From Roseburia sp. (GTDB taxonomy: Bacteria > Bacillota > Clostridia > Lachnospirales > Lachnospiraceae), in NCBI GenBank assembly GCA_023662875.1, contig JAMPIG010000024.1, positions 1-41,809 on the forward strand: a stretch of DNA of 41,809 bases, read 5' to 3'. The notes beneath the pieces are model-generated. The model saw only the letters and a program-made list of their open reading frames with translations, did not search any database and was not told the DNA's origin. This document shows, one piece after another, positions 1,546 through 12,611 of this stretch. The translations under genes and the position numbers were made by a program. Within the stretch, counting starts at the first letter, position 1, and each line of letters opens with the position of its first letter.

Positions 1546-3741
1546 ATGCATTACGGGATTTATACGCGGGAAGGCATAGAAAAAAAACTGATTCACATTA
1601 CGGATGACGGAAGCAGTATTACCTATATTCATCATAATATAACCCGAAATTACAGAAATCCGGAAGAAAAAGTGCAGGCAGAAATTTTCTGTAAATTAAT
1701 TCTCTGGTACAATTATCCGGCTGAAAAAATCGGATTGTATGTTCCCGTTACGGATGGCTCAACAAAAAAGCAGGCAGATATTTTTGTCTATAACGATAAT
1801 GCGCACACATCACCGCTTGTTGTTATTGAATGCAAAAAGGAGGATGTATCCGAGCAGGAATTTATACAAGCCGTAAATCAGGCTTTTTCGTATGCTTACT
1901 TTACATCGGGAACAATTAAATATGTGTGGACTACATCAGGAATCAAAAATGCATATTTTAAATTCGACAAAGAAAGCAGTGTCAGAGAAACTGTTTCCGA
2001 CATTCCGCAGTATGGCGTCAAAAAGTTAAGCGCGTACAAATATGCATATAACGGAGGAACTACGGAAAGCGGCCAGCAGTTGTTCCCGCTTACGAAGGTT
2101 TCCGAAAGCGAATTGACGAATATATTCAAGCAGGCACATCAGGCGCTTTGGGGCGGCGGGGAATTAAATCCTTCGGAGGCTTTTGACGAGCTTGATAAGC
2201 TTATTTTCTGTAAAATATATGACGAAAAAAAGGATCGTGATATCGGTGAACCGTATGATTTTCAGGTAATACCTGTTGAACCGGAAAATAATACCGAAGC
2301 GGCAAAAGCAAAAGCAGAATCGGAAACCAACGCGCGGCTCTTAAAACGTTTGAATGCGCTCTATGAAGAAGGACGTCGAATCGGTGAGCGAAAAAACGAT
2401 CCCGAAATTTTTAAGGATAACATTAAATTAAATGCAGCAAAAGCCAGAACAGTAGTCAGTTATCTGGAAGGAATTGATCTTTTAAGTACGGATCTTGACA
2501 GTAAAGGCCGGGCTTTCGAAACCTTTATGGGATCTTTTTTCCGTGGAGATTTCGGTCAATATTTCACACCAAGAAATATCGTTTCTTTTATCGTAGACAG
2601 TCTTCCTATTACGAACAAGAGCAGAGTTTTGGATACCTCGTGCGGCAGCGGCGGTTTTTTGCTGCATGCATTGGATAAGGTGCGTAAAGCTGCGACACAA
2701 AGGTATCCCGATCACAAAACGGATGTGAAGCAACATGCAAGATGGTGGCCGTATTGGCATGACTTTGCGGAAAATAATCTTTTTGGCATAGAAATCAATG
2801 AACAAATTGCTCGTACTGCCAAAATGAATATGATTATTCATGATGACGGCCACACGAATGTTGTTGCATCCGACGGGTTGCTCCCTCCCGAAGATCTGCA
2901 GGAAAAGACTGGCAATCCGGGCTTTCGAAGTAATTCGTTCGAATTTATTATTACGAATCCGCCGTTCGGTTCGGTTATAAAGCAAACGGAAAAAGCTTAT
3001 CTGCATCAATACTCTCTGGCAACCAGGGACATAGATTGGCTGAATCCCGCGAGTAAAGCAGCGGATCGTCCGAGCCAAAGCAGCGAGGTGTTGTTCATTG
3101 AGCAGGCAGAGCAGTATCTGACGGATGGCGGTTATCTGGCAATTGTTTTACCGGACGGCATTTTAACCAATTCCAGTATGCAGTATGTGCGTGATTACAT
3201 CGGCGACACCTTTCGGATTGTGGCGGTTGTTTCCTTGCCTCAAACCGCATTTATGGCAACGGGTGCCGGCGTAAAAAGTTCCGTGCTATTCCTGAAAAAG
3301 TACAGTCGAACCGAAAAGGAAAAGCGACAGACGGTTCGGGCAGAGATTCAATCCTTTTTGTTATCAGAATCGGATAACGGTATGGAACTGTTTTCGCTGT
3401 TGGAGCAAAAGAAGAAAGAAATTGCAAAATATAATAAATTAATCAGAACCGCAGAAAGGGATTCTGATGCAGATTCTCAAAGAATAAAAGAGGTGCGGCA
3501 GTCTGTTCTTGACGACTTTGACGAAAAAATTGAAAAACTGAAAGAAGAGTTAATAGAATCCTATGAAGCGTATTACAAAACGTCATTAATCAATTATCCC
3601 ATATTCATGGCGATTGCAGAAGATATCGGTTTCGACGCCACGGGAAAAGAAACCGGCAATAACGAATTAATTTCGATAGCGAAAGAGTTAGGTAAATTCA
3701 TTGAAGCAATCGAAAACGGAAAAGACCGTTTTTTTCTCTAA
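1546..3741 (+). CDS. Restriction nuclease-N6-adenine DNA methyltransferase fusion (type I/IIB-like R-M subunit)
   Basis: A 731-residue protein combining cleavage and modification. The N-terminus resembles the type I HsdR N-terminal (HSDR_N_2) nuclease: ADIFVY (D78) and VVIECKK (E95, K97) form a PD-(D/E)XK site. The central and C-terminal part is an HsdM-type methyltransferase with the SAM motif DTSCGSGGF (about residue 363) and the catalytic NPPF (471-474), marking it as an adenine-N6 enzyme. A charged, probably coiled-coil segment lies near residues 615-670. Together with the separate specificity subunit downstream this recalls BcgI-type enzymes, where nuclease and methylase share one chain (family knowledge). 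The start ATG has GGAGG 10 bases upstream, inside the tail of the previous gene, so coupling to it is likely. The gene is visibly AT-richer than the core genes. It ends in a seven-T run before TAA (see findings). Confidence 0.9.
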   Translation: MHYGIYTREGIEKKLIHITDDGSSITYIHHNITRNYRNPEEKVQAEIFCKLILWYNYPAEKIGLYVPVTDGSTKKQADIFVYNDNAHTSPLVVIECKKEDVSEQEFIQAVNQAFSYAYFTSGTIKYVWTTSGIKNAYFKFDKESSVRETVSDIPQYGVKKLSAYKYAYNGGTTESGQQLFPLTKVSESELTNIFKQAHQALWGGGELNPSEAFDELDKLIFCKIYDEKKDRDIGEPYDFQVIPVEPENNTEAAKAKAESETNARLLKRLNALYEEGRRIGERKNDPEIFKDNIKLNAAKARTVVSYLEGIDLLSTDLDSKGRAFETFMGSFFRGDFGQYFTPRNIVSFIVDSLPITNKSRVLDTSCGSGGFLLHALDKVRKAATQRYPDHKTDVKQHARWWPYWHDFAENNLFGIEINEQIARTAKMNMIIHDDGHTNVVASDGLLPPEDLQEKTGNPGFRSNSFEFIITNPPFGSVIKQTEKAYLHQYSLATRDIDWLNPASKAADRPSQSSEVLFIEQAEQYLTDGGYLAIVLPDGILTNSSMQYVRDYIGDTFRIVAVVSLPQTAFMATGAGVKSSVLFLKKYSRTEKEKRQTVRAEIQSFLLSESDNGMELFSLLEQKKKEIAKYNKLIRTAERDSDADSQRIKEVRQSVLDDFDEKIEKLKEELIESYEAYYKTSLINYPIFMAIAEDIGFDATGKETGNNELISIAKELGKFIEAIENGKDRFFL

Positions 3742-3764
3742 GCCCCATTTTTGATGAGAATAAG

Positions 3765-5201
3765 TTGTTTCTAATAAATTGGGGCGAAATGGAGGGCAGG
3801 ATAGATCCGTTTTATTATAAATCGGACTATCGGCTTCTGGAAAAGGCTGTTCTGAAAAACACAAAGCATAAGCTGCGTGATTTTATCATTTATATGGCTG
3901 GCGGTGCAACGCCGAGTAAGGACGAAAAGGGAAAGTATTATACGGACGCTTCCGGTATTCCTTTCATCAGAGTCCAGAACCTGACACCGGAGGGGTTAAA
4001 TCTAAATGAATGTGTGTTTATTAATGAGTATACTCATAATAATATGCTTTCCCGCAGCAAGGTGAAGGGAAACGATCTTTTGGTTAAAATTACCGGCGTG
4101 GGCAGGATGGCGGTTTCTTCTGTTGCGCCGCAATCGTTTGACGGAAACATTAATCAGCATATAGTTGTTATTAAAACAAAAGATCGTCAGACAAGCGAAT
4201 GGATCGCAGCATATTTAAATTCTGATATCGGTGAGAAACTGGCATCCAGGAGATCAACTGGCGGAACACGCCCGGCTTTGGATTACGCCGCACTGCGTTC
4301 CATTCCTGTAATAATGAAGGAAGACATTGTTAAAATCATGGAATCTGCATATGAGCAGAAGCGGCAAAAGGAATGCCAGGTTCAAAAATTACTCGACGGT
4401 ATAAACAGTTATTTAATAGACGCGCTTGGTATTGCATTGCCGCCTGAAAACGCTGACAATTTATCCGGCCGCATGTTTTATGTACATGCCGTTGACTTAC
4501 TGGGCGGGAGATTTGACCCGCGCAAATACAGCAAAAAGTACAGGCAGATATTGAGCGCAATAGAGTCGGCATCGTGCGACAGGAAACCGCTAAAGGAAAT
4601 TATAAAGGAGGATACATCCGGAGACTGGGGAATGGATGATTCTGCAGAAGATCCTGATTTGATTTCCTGTCTTACGATCAGGGGTACAGAGTTTGACAAT
4701 AAATTCAATCTGAATTTAGATAACAGCAGAACTAAATTCAGGAAGTACCGTCCTGAATTATTCGATAAAATCAAGTTGACCGAAAAAGACATCTTGATTG
4801 AAAAGTCGGGCGGCAGCGAAGATCAGCCTGTTGGCCGCGTTGCGTTTATCGAGAAGACCAGGTTGGATTCCTGCCGGTTGGCTTTCAGCAATTTTATTCA
4901 TCGTATAAGAATCGACGAGGAAAAAGCTGTTCCTGAATATGTTTTTGAATATCTGCGCCTGATGCACAATATAAAAATCACGGAAGTTATGCAGACGCAG
5001 ACCAACGGTATCAGAAATCTGATTATGCGGGAATATTTCACGCAGATAATTCTTTTACCGGAACCTGATGAACAGCGGGAAATTGCAGTACATGCTGCCC
5101 GGATGAGAAAACAGGCATATGAGTTACAGATCGAAGCCAAAAAGATCGTTGAAGATGCAAAAAGAAGAGTTGAAAAAATACTTTTGGGAGAAAAAGAATG
5201 A
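3765..5201 (+). CDS. Restriction-modification specificity subunit (HsdS-like)
   Basis: About 478 residues forming two target-recognition halves (roughly 1-215 and 216-478), each closing with a helical segment as in HsdS proteins. The first half contains GGATPSKDEKGKYY followed by IPFIRVQNL; the second begins near CDRKPLKEI, and the protein ends in a long charged helix. It would give sequence specificity to the upstream nuclease-methylase. The start is uncertain: TTG 3765 has only a weak GATGAG upstream, and the next in-frame ATG is 3789. The frame remains open leftwards past the upstream stop, in the -1 frame relative to the methylase, so production as a frameshift fusion is possible. It overlaps the next gene by ATGA. 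Base composition is AT-rich, like its neighbours in the cassette. Confidence 0.85.
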   Translation: MFLINWGEMEGRIDPFYYKSDYRLLEKAVLKNTKHKLRDFIIYMAGGATPSKDEKGKYYTDASGIPFIRVQNLTPEGLNLNECVFINEYTHNNMLSRSKVKGNDLLVKITGVGRMAVSSVAPQSFDGNINQHIVVIKTKDRQTSEWIAAYLNSDIGEKLASRRSTGGTRPALDYAALRSIPVIMKEDIVKIMESAYEQKRQKECQVQKLLDGINSYLIDALGIALPPENADNLSGRMFYVHAVDLLGGRFDPRKYSKKYRQILSAIESASCDRKPLKEIIKEDTSGDWGMDDSAEDPDLISCLTIRGTEFDNKFNLNLDNSRTKFRKYRPELFDKIKLTEKDILIEKSGGSEDQPVGRVAFIEKTRLDSCRLAFSNFIHRIRIDEEKAVPEYVFEYLRLMHNIKITEVMQTQTNGIRNLIMREYFTQIILLPEPDEQREIAVHAARMRKQAYELQIEAKKIVEDAKRRVEKILLGEKE

Positions 5202-6670
5202 GATTAACGGGGATTGTTGATTATTCTATGGGAAATTTCCTTTGTATAAGAGGGTTTTGTCCGATGATTCAGTTGGCTGATATATCTGAGACGATTCCGG
5301 AAATTCAGCGTGACCTGTTATCTGATCATGCCGGTGAAATGGATAAGTTTTTATCGGGAGGAGAATTTACATTCTTCCCTGAAGTCATTTTGTGTTCTGA
5401 TTTGGCATCAAACGGAGCGAGACAGGACGCCATTGCATCCTTCCGGATGGCGGTACGGCAAAAGCAGAATTTTTACGGTCGGGTTGGCCCGTTTAAATTT
5501 GCTGTGAAAGGATATGAATTAAAGAGTAAGGAGGACTCCCGTAAAAAGGATAATGTGCAGACTGTTTATATGGATTTTGACGAGGCCCAAACAGCTAAAT
5601 TTCTGCGTATTGACGGCAATCACAGATTAAGCGCGGTCAACGAGGGCTCATCTTATAAGGATAAGGCCATTTCCTTTTGCCTCTTATTGTTCAGCGGGGT
5701 AAGCGAAACGGATAAGTTCTGTCGGGCGCTGTTCCACAATATCAATACAAAGCAGATTCCGCTGAAAGATGAAGAAAATTTAAATGTTATTATTGAAAGT
5801 ACTGCCGTGTTTTCTGATGAAGACCTGGCGGCTAACTTTGGAACACCGTACCTGTATACCCGAAAACTTTGCGGCAAAACAGATTTATCGCACTATCCGC
5901 TGATTCAAAAGTATATCGGGGATAGCAAGTATACTTATTTTGTCGGTATTTTCGAGCATTTGTTGAAGCAGAGGCTGATTGAAAACGAGCCGGAATGTGT
6001 TGATGTCATTATTCAAAAGCTGTCAGATATCAACACCGCGTTGAGAGAATCAGGTATTGCAAATGTGACGGAGAACATTGCTGTTTTGGGAGCAATGACA
6101 TTTTATAAGCTGCAGGGGAATGAAGGAAAATATAAAAGTTTTATACGCTGGGTGCAGAAAAATAACATTGGCATTGCTGATAAATTACATATTAACGATG
6201 TGATTTCAATTTATGATTCTGTATATGCACATATACCCAAACGGGTATTTTTAGCGCGCTGGTATCCGGACAGCGAGCCGCATTTAAGTAAAGCGAACGG
6301 AAGATTAGCTGTAATCAGGCGAATCGTAGAAGAGGATTTCAGGCTGCAGTTAATTGATTTGGGAACTCAAGGCGGCGGAACATACTCTATCAGAGATTTG
6401 ATGTATAGAGAAATCGGAGCATCCGATATTTTTATCGCAGACCTGACAGGTAACAGACATAATGTCATGGTCGAAGTAGGATATGCTATAAAGAATGTGG
6501 GATTGGAAAGAATGCTATTATATTCGGAATCAATGGAAGGCGCGGAAAAACCGCCGTTTGATCTTAACGGTTTTCGCTATGAGCCAATTGTTGATTCAAA
6601 TGATATAGAGCTTAAGGTGAAACCCAAGCTGAAAGATATCATAGCTGGAATTGCTTCGGGCGAATTATGA
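5198..6670 (+). CDS. DGQHR-type domain fused to nucleoside-deoxyribosyltransferase/TIR-like domain; R-M-associated
   Basis: A 490-residue protein starting at an ATGA overlap with the specificity gene, implying translational coupling. Residues about 24-270 resemble DGQHR/DndB-type proteins: FLRIDGNHRLSAV (D139-R143) is the hallmark, with a following segment rich in hydrophobic strands. Residues about 348-490 resemble the Rossmann-like nucleoside 2-deoxyribosyltransferase/TIR-like fold: VFLARWYP strand, then SDIFIADLTG (D415) and NVMVEVGYA, whose E426 sits where the catalytic Glu of these enzymes lies. Such domains cleave N-glycosidic bonds of nucleosides or NAD in known immune effectors (established for relatives, not shown here). 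I infer a sensor-effector accessory to the R-M module. An internal ATG at 5263 (MIQLAD) is an alternative start. Domain assignments are by motif reading only. Confidence 0.7.
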   Translation: MRLTGIVDYSMGNFLCIRGFCPMIQLADISETIPEIQRDLLSDHAGEMDKFLSGGEFTFFPEVILCSDLASNGARQDAIASFRMAVRQKQNFYGRVGPFKFAVKGYELKSKEDSRKKDNVQTVYMDFDEAQTAKFLRIDGNHRLSAVNEGSSYKDKAISFCLLLFSGVSETDKFCRALFHNINTKQIPLKDEENLNVIIESTAVFSDEDLAANFGTPYLYTRKLCGKTDLSHYPLIQKYIGDSKYTYFVGIFEHLLKQRLIENEPECVDVIIQKLSDINTALRESGIANVTENIAVLGAMTFYKLQGNEGKYKSFIRWVQKNNIGIADKLHINDVISIYDSVYAHIPKRVFLARWYPDSEPHLSKANGRLAVIRRIVEEDFRLQLIDLGTQGGGTYSIRDLMYREIGASDIFIADLTGNRHNVMVEVGYAIKNVGLERMLLYSESMEGAEKPPFDLNGFRYEPIVDSNDIELKVKPKLKDIIAGIASGEL

Positions 6671-6841: not shown

Positions 6842-8416
6842 ATGGGTATCTATCTGAATCCGGGAAATAAGGGCTTCTGGGAGTCTGTCCGCTCGGAAAT
6901 TTATGTCGATAAGACAGGCTTGATCGCAGAGGTAAACAAGTGCGTCAACACGGAGCAGAAATATGTCTGTGTCAGCAGACCGCGGCGTTTTGGAAAGTCC
7001 ATGGCGCTGAAAATGCTGGCCGCTTACTATAGCCGGGGCTGTGATTCTGGAGAGCTGTTTATAAAGTATAAGATTGCAGAAAGCCCGTCCTATAAGGAGC
7101 ATCTGAATCAATATGATGTGATATTCTTGAACATGCAGCAGTTTCTGATCCGGGCAAAGGACAGGGATATCACAGAATATCTGGAACAGGCTGTATTGGA
7201 GGAGCTTCGGGAAGCCTATGGCAGTCTGTTCCCGGAACAGACGACGGCTTTGGCAACGGCGCTTGAAAAAATCTACGCAAAGACAGACAAGCAGTTTGTT
7301 TTCCTGATAGATGAATGGGACTGTGTGATGCGGGAGCGGCAGGAATCGGAAGTCTTGCAGAAGCAATATCTGGATTTCCTGCGCGACCTGCTGAAGGATC
7401 AGCCCTATGTGGCACTGGCCTATATGACAGGCATCCTTCCTGTAAAGAAATACGGGCAGCATTCGGCGCTGAATATGTTCCGGGAGTATTCCATGACGAA
7501 CCAAAGAAATCTTGAAGAATATACCGGATTTACAGAGGACGAGGTGGGAGCGCTTTGCAAACGTTTTGACATGGATTTTGCGGAAGCCAGCAGCTGGTAT
7601 GACGGATACCGATTCAGGAGGTTCAGGCATATTTATAATCCGAGGTCTGTGGTGGATGCGATGAGCTGTCGGGATTATTCGAATTACTGGACGGCAACGG
7701 AAACCTATGACGCTTTGAAAATCTATATCGACATGGATTTCGACGGGCTTCGGGCGGATATTGTGCAGATGCTCGGCGGAGGCCGCGTCAGGGTCAATAC
7801 GAGGAGCTTCCGGAACGATATGAAGAATTTCCGGACAAAGGACGATATCCTTACCCTTTTGATTCACCTGGGGTATCTCGCCTATGACGCCGCGAAGGAG
7901 GAGACGTTTATCCCCAATAAGGAGATCATCGGAGAGTTTGAGAATGCCATGAGCGTAGGCGGATGGCCGGAGGTCATGCGGATCTTAAAGGCATCGGAAA
8001 AGCTTCTGGAGGATACCTTAAGGGGCGACAAGGAGAGCGTTGCCGAAGCCCTTGACCGTGCGCATACGGAAGCCGCTTCCATATTGACCTACAACGATGA
8101 AAATTCGCTTGCCTGCGCGATCGGGCTTAGCTTTTACAGCGCCAGAAAGGATTACAAGCTTATCCGGGAGCTGCCGACAGGTCGTGGGTTTGCCGATATT
8201 GTGTTCCTGCCCCTGCCCTCCGTCAAGAAACCGGCGCTTGTAGTAGAGTTAAAATATGACAAAACGGCGGACGCGGCCATACAGCAGATCAAGGACAGGC
8301 GTTACACACAGGCATTGGAAGGGTACGGGGGCGAGGTGCTGCTTATGGGAATCAACTACGACAGGGACAACGTCAACAGGCCGCATAGCTGTGTGATAGA
8401 GACAGTGAAAAAGTAA
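6842..8416 (+). CDS. AAA-ATPase-like / PD-(D/E)XK nuclease protein, copy 2 (complete)
   Basis: Complete 524-residue version of the gene at the window's left edge. The N-terminal segment (MGIYLNPGNK...) leads into a Walker-A-like RPRRFGKS (46-53), Walker-B-like LIDEWD (155-160), and a C-terminal PD-(D/E)XK core with D452, E469 and K471. The start ATG is supported by AGGAGGA at 6824-6830, with a slightly long spacing of 11. It has its own candidate promoter, unlike the R-M genes. The family (AAA-ATPase_like with DUF1703) is widespread in gut Firmicutes, often in several copies per genome. Whether it acts in defence or is a selfish element is unsettled. The stop comes just after the end of the direct repeat, giving ETVKK in place of the longer tail of copy 1. 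Confidence 0.9.
   Translation: MGIYLNPGNKGFWESVRSEIYVDKTGLIAEVNKCVNTEQKYVCVSRPRRFGKSMALKMLAAYYSRGCDSGELFIKYKIAESPSYKEHLNQYDVIFLNMQQFLIRAKDRDITEYLEQAVLEELREAYGSLFPEQTTALATALEKIYAKTDKQFVFLIDEWDCVMRERQESEVLQKQYLDFLRDLLKDQPYVALAYMTGILPVKKYGQHSALNMFREYSMTNQRNLEEYTGFTEDEVGALCKRFDMDFAEASSWYDGYRFRRFRHIYNPRSVVDAMSCRDYSNYWTATETYDALKIYIDMDFDGLRADIVQMLGGGRVRVNTRSFRNDMKNFRTKDDILTLLIHLGYLAYDAAKEETFIPNKEIIGEFENAMSVGGWPEVMRILKASEKLLEDTLRGDKESVAEALDRAHTEAASILTYNDENSLACAIGLSFYSARKDYKLIRELPTGRGFADIVFLPLPSVKKPALVVELKYDKTADAAIQQIKDRRYTQALEGYGGEVLLMGINYDRDNVNRPHSCVIETVKK
6894..8408 (+). repeat. Long direct repeat, right copy
   Basis: Matches bases 1-1515 without a difference that I could see. It covers all but the first 52 bases and the last few bases of the complete AAA/nuclease gene. 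Recombination with the left copy would release a 6893-bp circle carrying the R-M cassette and leave one intact gene. Confidence 0.9.
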
Positions 8417-8525
8417 AACGAAAAAACAGGCAGGTATCTGTCGGCAAAATCCGACGGACGGGCGCGGCGGCGCCGCCTACCTGGAAAGTAGATCGTATAA
8501 TCTAAACTACCAGGAGGACAACACT

Positions 8526-9365
8526 GTGATCACAATGGAAAACGTATGCAAGACCTATCGGATTGCAAAAAGAAACGCAGGCCTGGCCGAGGCCTGCAGG
8601 GCGTTCTTTCACAGGGAATATGAGGTGATACACGCCTTGGAGGACGTTACCTTTACCATCGGCGACGGCGAGATGGTCGGCTACATCGGCCCCAACGGAG
8701 CGGGGAAAAGCTCCACGATCAAAATCTTAAGCGGAATATTGACGCCGGACAGCGGATATGTGGCGGTGGACGGGAGACCCCTATGGAACGCGGGAAAGGG
8801 CGCGCCCTTAACCAGGCGGGAGCGTTACAGCCGGATCGAGCATGTGCGCAGGATCGGAGTGGTCTTCGGCCAGCGTTCTCAGCTTTGGTGGGATGTTCCG
8901 GTGATCGATTCTTTTGAACTTCTGAAGGATATCTACTCCATTCGGGACAGCGTTTACCAAAACAATCTTCAGGAATTAACGGAAGCCTTAAGCCTGGGCG
9001 AGCTGTTGAAGACGCCTGCCAGACAGCTTTCTCTGGGACAGCGGATGCGCTGCGAGATTGCGGCTTCCCTGCTGCACGATCCGGATATTTTGTTTCTGGA
9101 CGAGCCTACCATCGGGCTGGACGCCGTGTCGAAGCTGGCGGTTCGGGACTTTGTAAAGCAGCGGAATCAGAGCCGCGGCACTACGGTAATCCTGACGACC
9201 CACGACATGCAGGACATCGAGGCCATAGCCAGTCGGATCCTTCTGATCGGGAAGGGCCGGATCCTCATGGACGGCGGTTTGGACGATATCAGGCGGGGCG
9301 GCGAGAGCATGGACGAGACGCTGGCGGAGCTGTACCGAACCTACGAGATTCAGGAGGGCGCATGA
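8526..9365 (+). CDS. ABC-2 type exporter, ATP-binding subunit
   Basis: A 279-residue ATPase with Walker A GPNGAGKS (55-62), signature LSLGQRMR, Walker B ILFLDEPTIGLD and an H-loop in LTTHDM. The N-terminal stretch before the Walker A site carries an insert (AGLAEACRAFFHREYEVIHA) typical of the ATPases paired with ABC2_membrane_6 permeases. It begins with GTG, 8 bases after AGGAGG (8512-8517); an ATG nine bases further in is the alternative. A perfect TATAAT (8496-8501) lies upstream but has no convincing -35. It overlaps the first permease gene by ATGA, so the three genes form one operon exporting an unknown substrate. Confidence 0.93.
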   Translation: MITMENVCKTYRIAKRNAGLAEACRAFFHREYEVIHALEDVTFTIGDGEMVGYIGPNGAGKSSTIKILSGILTPDSGYVAVDGRPLWNAGKGAPLTRRERYSRIEHVRRIGVVFGQRSQLWWDVPVIDSFELLKDIYSIRDSVYQNNLQELTEALSLGELLKTPARQLSLGQRMRCEIAASLLHDPDILFLDEPTIGLDAVSKLAVRDFVKQRNQSRGTTVILTTHDMQDIEAIASRILLIGKGRILMDGGLDDIRRGGESMDETLAELYRTYEIQEGA

Positions 9366-10166: not shown

Positions 10167-10973
10167 GTGAGAATGAGAGAAAAAAAGGTGGGCGGATTCC
10201 GGCTTTATCTGCATTATCTGTCGGTGATCGCAAAGAGCGCCATGCAGTACAAGGCTTCCTTTTGGATGATGGCGGTGGGGCACTTTTTCGTGTCCTTTAA
10301 TGTGCTGGCGGCGGTATACTTTCTGTTTCAACGGTTTTCCAATGTGGGAGGTTATGTCTACAGCGAGGTGCTTTTGTGCTTTGCTGTTACGTTGATGGAG
10401 TTTTCGATTGCCGAGATCTGGGCCAGGGGCTTTGACACCTTTCCCTCCATGATTCGACAGGGAACCTTCGACAGGGTTCTGCTTCGTCCCAGAAACGAAA
10501 TTTTACAGGTGCTGGGAAGCAAGTTTGAGCTGGTGAGAATCGGCAGGGTGCTCACGGCGGCTGTCGTATTCGGGTACGGGGTGGCTCAGGCTGGACTTCG
10601 CTGGACGGCGGGGAAGGTGCTCGCCCTGCTCTTTATGCTGGCGGGCGGCGTGGCTCTTTTCAGCGCGCTTTTTCTGATTTACGCGGCCTTGAGCTTTTTT
10701 ACCCTGGAGGGGCTGGAGTTTATGAACGTCTTTACAAACGGCGCAATGGAATACGGAAAGTATCCTTTTGGCGTCTACGGAAGGAAAATGCTGTGGATCA
10801 CTACCTTTGTGATTCCTTATGCGCTGGTGCAGCATTATCCCTTGCAGTATCTGCTGGACCGGGAGGACAATCCGGTTCTTATATTTCTGCCGCTTGCGGC
10901 GATGTGGTTTTTGGTTCCGGCCTTCTGCCTGTGGCGCTTTGGCGTGAGGAAATATAAGTCCAGCGGCTCCTGA
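10167..10973 (+). CDS. ABC-2 type exporter permease, second subunit
   Basis: About 268 residues and six hydrophobic segments, related to the preceding permease in size and layout. Two starts are plausible: GTG 10167, five bases after GGAGG (10157-10161), or ATG 10173 at a spacing of 11. I chose the GTG for spacing. A longer in-frame extension into the previous gene has no ribosome binding site. The motif FDRVLLRPRNE between the early membrane segments resembles cytoplasmic loops of this permease family. It is the last gene of the exporter operon. Confidence 0.85.
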   Translation: MRMREKKVGGFRLYLHYLSVIAKSAMQYKASFWMMAVGHFFVSFNVLAAVYFLFQRFSNVGGYVYSEVLLCFAVTLMEFSIAEIWARGFDTFPSMIRQGTFDRVLLRPRNEILQVLGSKFELVRIGRVLTAAVVFGYGVAQAGLRWTAGKVLALLFMLAGGVALFSALFLIYAALSFFTLEGLEFMNVFTNGAMEYGKYPFGVYGRKMLWITTFVIPYALVQHYPLQYLLDREDNPVLIFLPLAAMWFLVPAFCLWRFGVRKYKSSGS

Positions 10974-11093
10974 CGGGAAAGGGTGCGGCACTTTTGCTAC
11001 GGTGGGATGACTTTAAAAGGCCGTTCCGGATATCGTATAAAAGCAAATGATAAGGGGAGAAATGAAGCTTCATCATTCTCAAGGAGGGAAAAA

Positions 11094-12611
11094 ATGATCA
11101 AAAATTACACAACGCAAATTGAAAGATGGGGACTTTTTGAACTTTCAGTCACCGGAAAAACAGGGGGAAATCCATTTGTTGACGATTCTGTCGTCGCACA
11201 TTTTGAAAGTCTGTCGGAAGACAAGATCGTTAGCGGTTTTTATGATGGCGGTGGAATATACAAGATAAGATTTATGCCTTCTTTTGAAGAAACATATCGT
11301 TTCACCGTTCACGGAAGTTTTTTCGATGACGAGATCAGCGGAGAATTTACCGTTCTGCCGCCCGCCGAAAATAATCACGGTCCCGTAAGGGTAAGCGGTA
11401 AATTTCACTTTGAATATGCAGACGGTATTCCTTATTATCCGATCGGCACGACTTGTTATGTCTGGAATCTCCAGCGGGATGAGCTTATCGAAAAAACGCT
11501 TGAAAGCCTGAAACGGTCTCCGTTCAATAAAATACGGTTTTGTATCTTTCCGAAGCATTATGATTATAATTACGGCGAACCCCGTTCTTATCCGTATGAA
11601 GGTACTCCGATGGACAGCGGCGCAATTACGGAAGACAATTTCTGGAGCTTTGGAGCCGATTCGAAGGGGAATAATTGGGATTTTGAACGTTTTTGCCCAG
11701 AACATTTCCGGCATATTGAATATTGTATTTTGGAGCTGCAAAAGCTGGGCATTGAAGCTGACATCATATTGTTTCATCCTTATGATCGCTGGGGATTCTC
11801 GGCAATGACTCCCGGGCAAAACGATTTGTACTTAAGGTATACCATGGCAAGATTATCCGCATACAGAAACGTATGGTGGTCTTTTGCCAACGAATATGAT
11901 CTGATAAAAAGCAAAACGGTTGAGGACTGGGAACAATATGCAAAGACAGTAACGGAAAACGATCCGTATAATCATTTGCGATCCATACATAACTGCGCGG
12001 AATTTTACGACCATTCAAGGCCCTGGATAACGCACTGCAGCATTCAGCGCTCTCCCGAGGGAGCCGATGATTGGAGAAAACAGTACGGGAAGCCTGTTGT
12101 TATTGACGAAATGGCATACGAAGGCAATCTCCAGTACGGTTGGGGAAATTTCTCGGCACAGGAGATAGTACGACGTTTCTGGGAGGCGGCGTGTCGGGGC
12201 GGGTACGGAGGTCACGGCGAAACTTATCTTGATCGGGACGCCATATGGTGGTCTCATGGCGGCGTACTCAAGGGAGAAAGTCCATCGAGGATAGCATTTT
12301 TGAAAAAAATAATCGAAGAAGCTCCTTCGGGAGGACTTCGCTATAAGCCGATGTCGTGGGATGAAACGTGCGCGGTTCCCGAAGAGGAAGTCAGGGCGGA
12401 AGAAACAGGTTATCATCTTTTTTATTTTGGCATCATGCGTCCGTCGTTTCATACTTTTCATTTTGATGATGAATACACATACCGTGTTGACGTTATCGAC
12501 ACCTGGAATATGACGGTAGAAAACAGAGGAGAATTTAAGGGAAGGTTTAAAATACTTCTTCCTGCCAGAGAGTATATGGCGGTAAGGGTGACAAAATCGC
12601 AGAAAGTATGA
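11094..12611 (+). CDS. Glycoside hydrolase-like protein (DUF5060/DUF4038/DUF5605 type)
   Basis: A 505-residue protein with no signal peptide, hence probably cytoplasmic. Residues 1-90 look like a beta-sandwich DUF5060 domain. Residues about 100-400 look like a clan-A (beta/alpha)8 barrel: FANEYD (E267) fits the acid/base position and VVIDEM (E339) the nucleophile. A C-terminal beta domain (DUF5605-like) follows. Relatives act on plant or host-derived oligosaccharides; the substrate here is unknown. The start ATG follows AAGGAGGG (11081-11088) at 5 bases. Codon use is clearly AT-richer than in the genes on either side, suggesting horizontal acquisition. No sugar transporter or other carbohydrate gene is adjacent. 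Confidence 0.75.
   Translation: MIKNYTTQIERWGLFELSVTGKTGGNPFVDDSVVAHFESLSEDKIVSGFYDGGGIYKIRFMPSFEETYRFTVHGSFFDDEISGEFTVLPPAENNHGPVRVSGKFHFEYADGIPYYPIGTTCYVWNLQRDELIEKTLESLKRSPFNKIRFCIFPKHYDYNYGEPRSYPYEGTPMDSGAITEDNFWSFGADSKGNNWDFERFCPEHFRHIEYCILELQKLGIEADIILFHPYDRWGFSAMTPGQNDLYLRYTMARLSAYRNVWWSFANEYDLIKSKTVEDWEQYAKTVTENDPYNHLRSIHNCAEFYDHSRPWITHCSIQRSPEGADDWRKQYGKPVVIDEMAYEGNLQYGWGNFSAQEIVRRFWEAACRGGYGGHGETYLDRDAIWWSHGGVLKGESPSRIAFLKKIIEEAPSGGLRYKPMSWDETCAVPEEEVRAEETGYHLFYFGIMRPSFHTFHFDDEYTYRVDVIDTWNMTVENRGEFKGRFKILLPAREYMAVRVTKSQKV

Follow-up and report, generated by a model that had tools for sequence, protein, structure and literature searches.

What is a gene for a two-part protein, with a DGNHR motif in one half and a TIR-like domain in the other, doing directly behind the genes of a restriction-modification (R-M) enzyme? 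The question is raised by a contig of Roseburia sp. (JAMPIG010000024.1, GenBank assembly GCA_023662875.1, positions 1 to 41,809), which is 41,809 nucleotides long and is called the window here; it is contig C68 of a home genome assembly of 3.7 Mb in 151 contigs. A plus-strand run of three genes at 1546-6670 encodes a nuclease-methyltransferase fusion (RM), an HsdS-type specificity subunit (S) and a third protein of 490 amino acids. The initial annotation had placed the third open reading frame at 5198..6670, coupled by ATGA behind a nuclease-methylase fusion and its S subunit, and had read in its product DGNHR at residues 139-143, ADLTG with D415 and NVMVEVG with E426; the coordinates, the overlap and the motif positions were all confirmed. 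The overlap probably couples the translation of hsdS to that of the third gene. The data support a real fusion in a real three-gene cassette, which we propose, with a probability of roughly 0.47, to be a compact two-tier anti-phage system with a guard resembling PrrC: R-M would be the first line, and its failure would release a TIR domain that cleaves nicotinamide adenine dinucleotide (NAD) or another nucleotide. No paper on a DGNHR-TIR fusion was seen in the open-access library searched, judged mostly from listings, a scope outside which most subscription papers and all bioRxiv preprints lie.

Since relatives of the whole third protein exist, the fusion is more than a chance joining. Seven distinct DGNHR-TIR loci were compared: the window, L002, L003, L006, L015, L023 and L052. 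L002 and L003 were found among 17 candidate stretches, of which three were confirmed, the third (L001) being the window DNA in another bin (6036/6036 bases identical). The phylum search gave L015 (9/398 genomes matched, two over the full length including our own), the order search L052 (5/196 matched, again two full-length including our own), and in a class sample 5/291 genomes matched, with our own gene as the only full-length one. L006, a Leisingera plasmid, was the sole match among 72,556 records, and L023, a viral contig, the one stretch confirmed out of 31. Searched as a whole, the cassette had no match in plasmid DNA, phage records gave none either, and further viral-contig scans yielded nothing beyond the locus already found; a weak match (E 0.04) was seen on contig C58 of the own genome. 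Identity to the window protein falls from 85% in L002 through 58% in L003 and 45% in L052 to 28% in L015, 27% in L006 (over 352 aligned positions) and 25% in L023. Even so, 27 columns are identical in all seven, including R137-R143, F179, N183, D415-T417, N422, V423, E426 and G428; Q37 was left out of them because L006 lacks the region and its match there is an alignment artefact. Between the window and its 85% relative the third gene has a nonsynonymous divergence (dN) of 0.080 with saturated synonymous divergence (dS), and owing to such saturation no dN/dS ratio is given for hsdS or the third gene. The C-terminal domain taken alone (dN 0.060, dS 1.40) is under purifying selection.

Linkage of homologues to R-M genes had been set beforehand as a test that could refute the initial annotation. 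The result does not refute it: in this small sample all seven distinct loci abut a methylase gene, an S gene or both. Five are intact (window, L002, L003, L015, L052); L006 has a methylase without the nuclease part, fused directly into the third gene, and no S, while L023 retains an S-like part only. The S gene and the third gene overlap by four bases in the window, L002 and L003 and by one base in L052, and are separated by one base in L015 and six in L023, so that in none of the six loci with an S part are the two more than six bases apart. The S-like part of L023 belongs to an odd fusion (7033-8982) with sigma-70 regions at the N-terminus and the HsdS-type part at the C-terminus. The third gene might still be a separate defence gene that shares a defence island with the R-M pair but is functionally unconnected to it, and other defence-type genes do follow it directly, a T5orf172 gene (PDC-S57) in L002 (10483-11550) and an Mrr-family gene (PDC-S02) in L023 (10508-11584). 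We regard this as very unlikely, given that the same order with contact or overlap is kept in deeply diverged cassettes and that linkage stands at 7/7 for the fusion against 2/14 for the TIR-only relatives retrieved in the same profile searches.

The cassette was also surveyed from the side of the RM gene. That query matched at least 6/398 genomes, our own included, at a cut-off of 1e-40 that missed the RM gene of G116 (8.8e-31), and 7+7 plasmid records, 11 of them distinct. Besides the window, 16 loci were compared (L006, L036-L047 and L078-L080); L040 and L078 belong to a single species but to different plasmids, and L078 shows the downstream side that is cut by the record end in L040. Apart from L006, these loci carry RM and S alone or, in some, RM and S fused or no recognised separate S. 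Other types of gene were seen as well: in the Flammeovirga plasmid L039 a gene (10656-12362) for an OLD/PtuA/mad3-like ATPase that weakly matches TOPRIM overlaps the hsdS of a related RM-S pair, protein kinase genes lie behind hsdS in L041, L042 and L080, and L043 has a gene without family assignment in addition to its R-M genes. A tree of 18 RM proteins places the third gene on two lineages, one with the window, L002, L003, L006 and L052 and one with L015, and its well-supported branches force two changes of the third gene, as L015 groups with L039 and L040 while the gene is absent from L039 and from L078, the close kin of L040. Its presence on two separate methylase lineages indicates that the pairing recurred or was selectively kept. 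L006 is nearer to the window than L052 in the methylase (57% vs 46%) and farther in the third protein (27% vs 45%), which suggests that the third gene was exchanged; alternatively, L006, which looks decayed, may simply have drifted.

The C-terminal domain had been assigned to the nucleoside deoxyribosyltransferase (NDT)/TIR type. This agrees with matches to PADLOC, PDB and Pfam profiles, but the scores for PF10137 and PF05014 remain under the family cut-offs. The PADLOC model PDLC00733, for a TIR effector of the cyclic oligonucleotide-based antiphage signalling system (CBASS) and provided without a cut-off in that library, matches the window (2.5e-9), L003 (1e-12), L015 (1.2e-8) and L052 (4.5e-9). 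The NDT family PF05014 scores 13.9 bits in the window and 22.7 bits in L052 vs a cut-off of 28.8, and PF10137 and PF05014 each match four of six C-termini, all weakly. A PDB search with a profile of the six C-termini, at E up to 1, returned six sequences: PycTIR (0.02), Cap12 (0.099) and four Rcl/DNPH1 entries (0.35-0.67). All these weak matches are TIR domains or related N-hydrolases, and it is therefore their agreement, and not any single E-value, that counts as evidence. N422, V423, E426 and G428, the NVxxExG pattern, are invariant in all seven loci. The Glu of this pattern in the Cap12/PycTIR TIR domains (PF10137) presumably has a catalytic role, and TIR domains with such a Glu are NADases; TIR NADase activity is also mentioned in PMC10853773. 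On profile scores and motifs the domain thus appears most similar to TIR effectors of the Cap12/PycTIR type and only slightly less so to nucleotide N-hydrolases, and TIR is favoured over NDT.

The same domain could be read as part of an effector against modified nucleotides or DNA, in which modified phage DNA or nucleotides are recognised by the DGNHR half and stripped of their bases by the C-terminus, an Rcl/DNPH1/NDT-like deoxynucleoside N-hydrolase; such an enzyme would counter phages that evade the R-M enzyme through hypermodified DNA. Rcl/DNPH1 proteins are among the PDB profile matches and PF05014 matches four of six members (best 0.00017; L052 0.00011), but the catalytic Asp of rat Rcl, which we take to be Asp69, falls on M402 in our own reading of the PDB profile alignment, and the NV-x-x-E-x-G pattern together with better scores favours Cap12/PycTIR and the CBASS TIR effectors. 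The C-terminal stretches FVSMQF of L006 and FVAMPF of L023 resemble those of stand-alone genes in L054 and L055, and PMC4619093 places DGQHR and GmrS-type domains in systems linked to modification. On balance, we consider this reading unlikely.

The N-terminal half had been called DndB-like. DGQHR domains are marked by three motifs, a QR pair, DGQHR and FxxxN, as set out in PMC4619093, which also describes the GmrS domain as related to DGQHR, with a predicted ParB/sulfiredoxin fold. F179 and N183 of FxxxN are kept in 7/7 loci and the Q37-R38 pair in the 6/6 that have the region, which L006 lacks; the pentapeptide, however, is DGNHR with Asn instead of Gln in 7/7 and so departs from the near-invariant DGQHR, and for the DGQHR/DndB family (TIGR03187, PF14072) the score of the model TIGR03187 lies under its cut-off. 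The likeness to DndB therefore stands for the QR pair and FxxxN and fails for the pentapeptide and the family score. A PDB search with the whole third protein and one with a profile of five N-termini (E up to 1) gave no match, and there is consequently no solved template for this half. By its motifs, we read the half as a divergent relative of the DGQHR/DndB domains that is outside the curated family. Its profile alone matched 3/196 genomes of the order, namely our own, G676 and, weakly (7.7e-4), G800, and this search turned up no DGNHR half that lacks TIR. The G800 match (L073, 6087-7241), from another genus, is a 384-amino-acid protein with DGQHR (Gln) and no TIR match; its locus also holds a gene that by eye looks like an adenine methylase. 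The suggested link to phosphorothioation was not borne out, and the phosphorothioate (Dnd) reading was rejected: the cassette contains no dnd gene, and DGNHR in place of DGQHR goes with sub-cut-off family scores.

PMC10853773 considers NTPase, nuclease and regulator as possible roles of DndB and describes it as limiting modification. The third protein could accordingly be an accessory or regulator that modulates or stabilises the R-M complex, perhaps by limiting methylation or cleavage, with a TIR-like domain that only binds a nucleotide. Coupling of the gene to hsdS fits such a role, yet E426 and the surrounding motif stay invariant in 7/7 loci even where identity drops to about 25%, as a catalytic site should, and most R-M relatives examined do without the third gene; we find this explanation quite improbable.

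The R-M pair itself is better described as type IIB-like, of the BsaXI/BcgI kind, than as type I, judging from its domains and closest relatives. The RM subunit matches HSDR_N_2 (2.5e-16) and N6_Mtase (2.8e-35), with D78, E95 and K97 (AD...ECK) in the nuclease domain and NPPF at 471 in the methyltransferase, and the S subunit matches Methylase_S (8.6e-10) and, in PDB, the DNA-recognition subunit 7vru_C (2.5e-7). The closest solved relative of RM is the type IIB enzyme RM.BsaXI (1.7e-39, residues 183-593). BsaXI requires E73, D90, E105 and K107 (PMC11997821); the D and ExK are kept in 8/8 aligned RM proteins, and E73 has no clear counterpart in that alignment. A nuclease-methyltransferase fusion with a separate S subunit, by which PMC3874165 defines type IIB, is present in the cassette. 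Plain type I R-M was rejected, as the cassette has no hsdR and carries its nuclease in one protein with the methylase. The best NCBIfam matches are MAD2 for RM (1.6e-89, 300.9 vs 720 bits) and MAD5 for S (3.9e-23, 82 vs 400 bits), so far under the equivalog cut-offs that membership in MADS was rejected too; the composition of MADS is taken here from model names and matches, i.e., methylase MAD2, S subunit MAD5, ATPase-like mad3 and kinase-like mad6.

These parts suggest how the cassette might act. Judging from their families, RM and S would methylate host sites and cut unmodified DNA without a translocase subunit, while the third protein would ride on or monitor the enzyme. We infer that the DGNHR half acts as a sensor of the R-M complex, or of its DNA, and in this way controls the TIR domain; being of the ParB/sulfiredoxin type and probably nucleotide-binding, it would keep that domain silent, and coupling to hsdS would match the amount of the protein to that of the complex. 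The trigger would be a phage that inactivates or titrates the enzyme, or an encounter of restriction with DNA that is modified or being replicated. The N-terminal half would then switch state, and the TIR domain, using E426 for catalysis, would cleave NAD+ or, less likely, another nucleotide and so halt the infected cell. Precedent comes from PrrC, an effector that an R-M complex keeps bound until phage infection sets it free (PMC3710099 and PMC3874165). The guard reading is supported by the 7/7 linkage, the close hsdS junctions, the invariant DGNHR and E426 and the TIR profile matches; by the third gene on two methylase lineages and the other gene types behind the hsdS of related pairs; and by TIR-like genes inside two type I operons together with the PrrC precedent.

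Several results weigh against it. TIGR03187 reaches 8.5e-6 and 25.7 bits in the window protein vs a curated cut-off of 58.85, and its matches in relatives (L015 7.8e-9, L003 1.2e-6, L023 1.4e-5; 17.7-35.7 bits) all stay below it as well. PF10137 gives 0.0064 and 16.9 bits for the whole window protein and 19.2 bits for the domain alone, where 24.7 is the cut-off, and L023 has no PADLOC match at E 0.1. DGNHR-TIR was present in only one of the 16 RM loci (L006), which makes the third gene dispensable for the platform. Finally, 12 of the 14 TIR-only relatives showed no R-M gene in the stretch covered, as judged with a small set of reference genes, and four of these 12 stretches span only 3.8-8 kb.

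The other two TIR-only relatives are situated in type I operons. In L053 a stand-alone TIR/NDT-like gene (5765-6439) lies in a classical operon of the order hsdM, TIR-like, hsdS, then hsdR, with four-base overlaps on both sides, with hsdM and with hsdS; a 191-amino-acid gene before hsdR has an RNNLMH stretch and looks HEPN-like by eye, with no Pfam or PADLOC match. In L074 (5471-6424) a 317-amino-acid protein with a C-terminal TIR/NDT-like part is encoded between hsdS and hsdR, in the order hsdM, hsdS, TIR-like, hsdR, and this is also the position of the prrC gene. A wider reading, which is possible but doubtful, is that R-M enzymes of the type IIB or MAD2-MAD5 kind form a shared sensing platform, with a slot behind hsdS in which different effectors can be exchanged, and that the guarded object is the enzyme as such and not just the DNA that it cuts. 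The slot would hold the DGNHR-TIR NADase here, an OLD/PtuA-like ATPase-TOPRIM protein in Flammeovirga and kinases in MADS-like loci; phage anti-restriction would trigger suicide by NAD+ loss, and the same logic could apply to the type I operons L053 and L074.

The surroundings of the cassette (Table 1) bear on its mobility. Bases 1-1526 and 6894-8419 are 99.8% identical, forming long direct repeats that flank the cassette, and a single base separates the stop of the left ATPase gene copy from the RM start. The contig of L001, from the other bin, begins 55 bases into the repeat, consistent with both copies of the ATPase gene being real; the family has 17 matching places in the own genome, the two window copies included. 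Flanking repeats of this kind resemble R-M insertion with long target duplication, and recombination between them could be a route to cassette loss. For the ABC-transporter region from 8526 onward, those matches in relatives that were listed begin after the ATPase gene, so that the block of ATPase, cassette and ATPase looks inserted there; a clean empty site was not found among them. Such mobility would suit an addiction element, in which a toxin restrained by the R-M complex punishes cassette loss and serves the cassette instead of phage defence, and the spread of relatives over Bacillota bins, an alphaproteobacterial plasmid and a viral contig points the same way. Addiction is compatible with the guard model and not exclusive of it; as the explanation in its own right we hold it to be highly improbable.

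Table 1. Features of the cassette and its flanks, in window coordinates.
Feature	Position	Strand	Basis or remark
AAA-ATPase_like/PDDEXK_9 gene, left copy, cut by contig start	1..1544	+	Flank, not part of the mechanism
RM subunit, 731 amino acids	1546..3741	+	HSDR_N_2 nuclease (residues 39-154) fused to N6 adenine methyltransferase (residues 318-594), Pfam
HsdS-type specificity subunit, 478 amino acids, TTG start	3765..5201	+	Two Methylase_S stretches
Third gene, DGNHR-TIR fusion, 490 amino acids	5198..6670	+	Open reading frame, relatives, motif alignment
ATGA start-stop overlap of hsdS and third gene	5198..5201	+	ATG 5198-5200 over TGA 5199-5201, context gaATGAgatt
N-terminal half of third protein, residues 1-339	5198..6214	+	Divergent DGQHR/DndB-type by motifs; QR 37-38, DGNHR 139-143, FxxxN 179-183
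DGNHR codons, residues 139-143	nt 5612-5626	+	Motif; RIDGNHRL from residue 137
C-terminal domain of third protein, residues 340-490	6215..6667	+	Cap12/PycTIR-like TIR, NDT-related (profile matches)
D415	nt 6440-6442	+	Motif position; ADLTG from residue 414
E426, putative catalytic	nt 6473-6475	+	Motif position; NVMVEVG from residue 422
AAA-ATPase_like/PDDEXK_9 gene, right complete copy, 524 amino acids	6842..8416	+	Flank

PrrC-EcoprrI is the classic example of a suicide enzyme standing guard over an R-M system. If the proposed mechanism is true, such guarding also involves TIR effectors and compact type IIB-like enzymes, a DGQHR-type domain gains a role outside phosphorothioate and deazaguanine modification, and a small three-gene cassette becomes available for asking whether the loss of restriction itself is sensed. 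By the criteria of the respective families and systems, the find does not belong to DndB, PF10137, PF05014, MADS or PrrC, and its likeness to known systems is one of parts. With the DGQHR/DndB/DpdB proteins and GmrS (DUF262) the third protein shares the QR pair, a DG-x-HR pentapeptide and FxxxN; it differs from them in having DGNHR in 7/7 loci, in its sub-cut-off scores and in a cassette without Dnd or Dpd genes. Its C-terminal domain resembles CBASS Cap12 and Pycsar PycTIR, but is fused to a DGNHR domain and not to a cyclic-nucleotide sensor, and no nucleotide cyclase gene was present in the cassette runs of the five intact loci, which hold only RM, S and the third gene. The R-M pair shares with BcgI/BsaXI the RM fusion, the separate S subunit, the D...ExK nuclease residues and the N6-adenine methyltransferase, while the phmmer similarity to BsaXI spans the methyltransferase part (residues 183-593) only and the cassette adds a third gene. 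MADS resembles the cassette in that MAD2 and MAD5 are the top NCBIfam names for RM and S, and differs in that the three-gene run has no kinase or mad3-like gene. Like PrrC in EcoprrI, the third gene is embedded in an R-M operon, with a presumed effector role, and its product joins a presumed N-terminal regulatory domain of nucleotide type to a presumably toxic C-terminal domain, an arrangement described for PrrC in PMC3710099 and PMC3874165. The differences are a TIR-like domain and not a HEPN RNase, a DGQHR/ParB-type domain and not an ABC ATPase, and a type IIB-like platform without HsdR; Pfam, NCBIfam and PADLOC scans gave no family match for a HEPN anticodon nuclease fused to an ABC ATPase. 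In the proposed parallel, TIR would replace the anticodon nuclease and the DGQHR-type domain the ABC ATPase. An R-M enzyme with an embedded effector is a known principle, and the cassette most likely works like PrrC.

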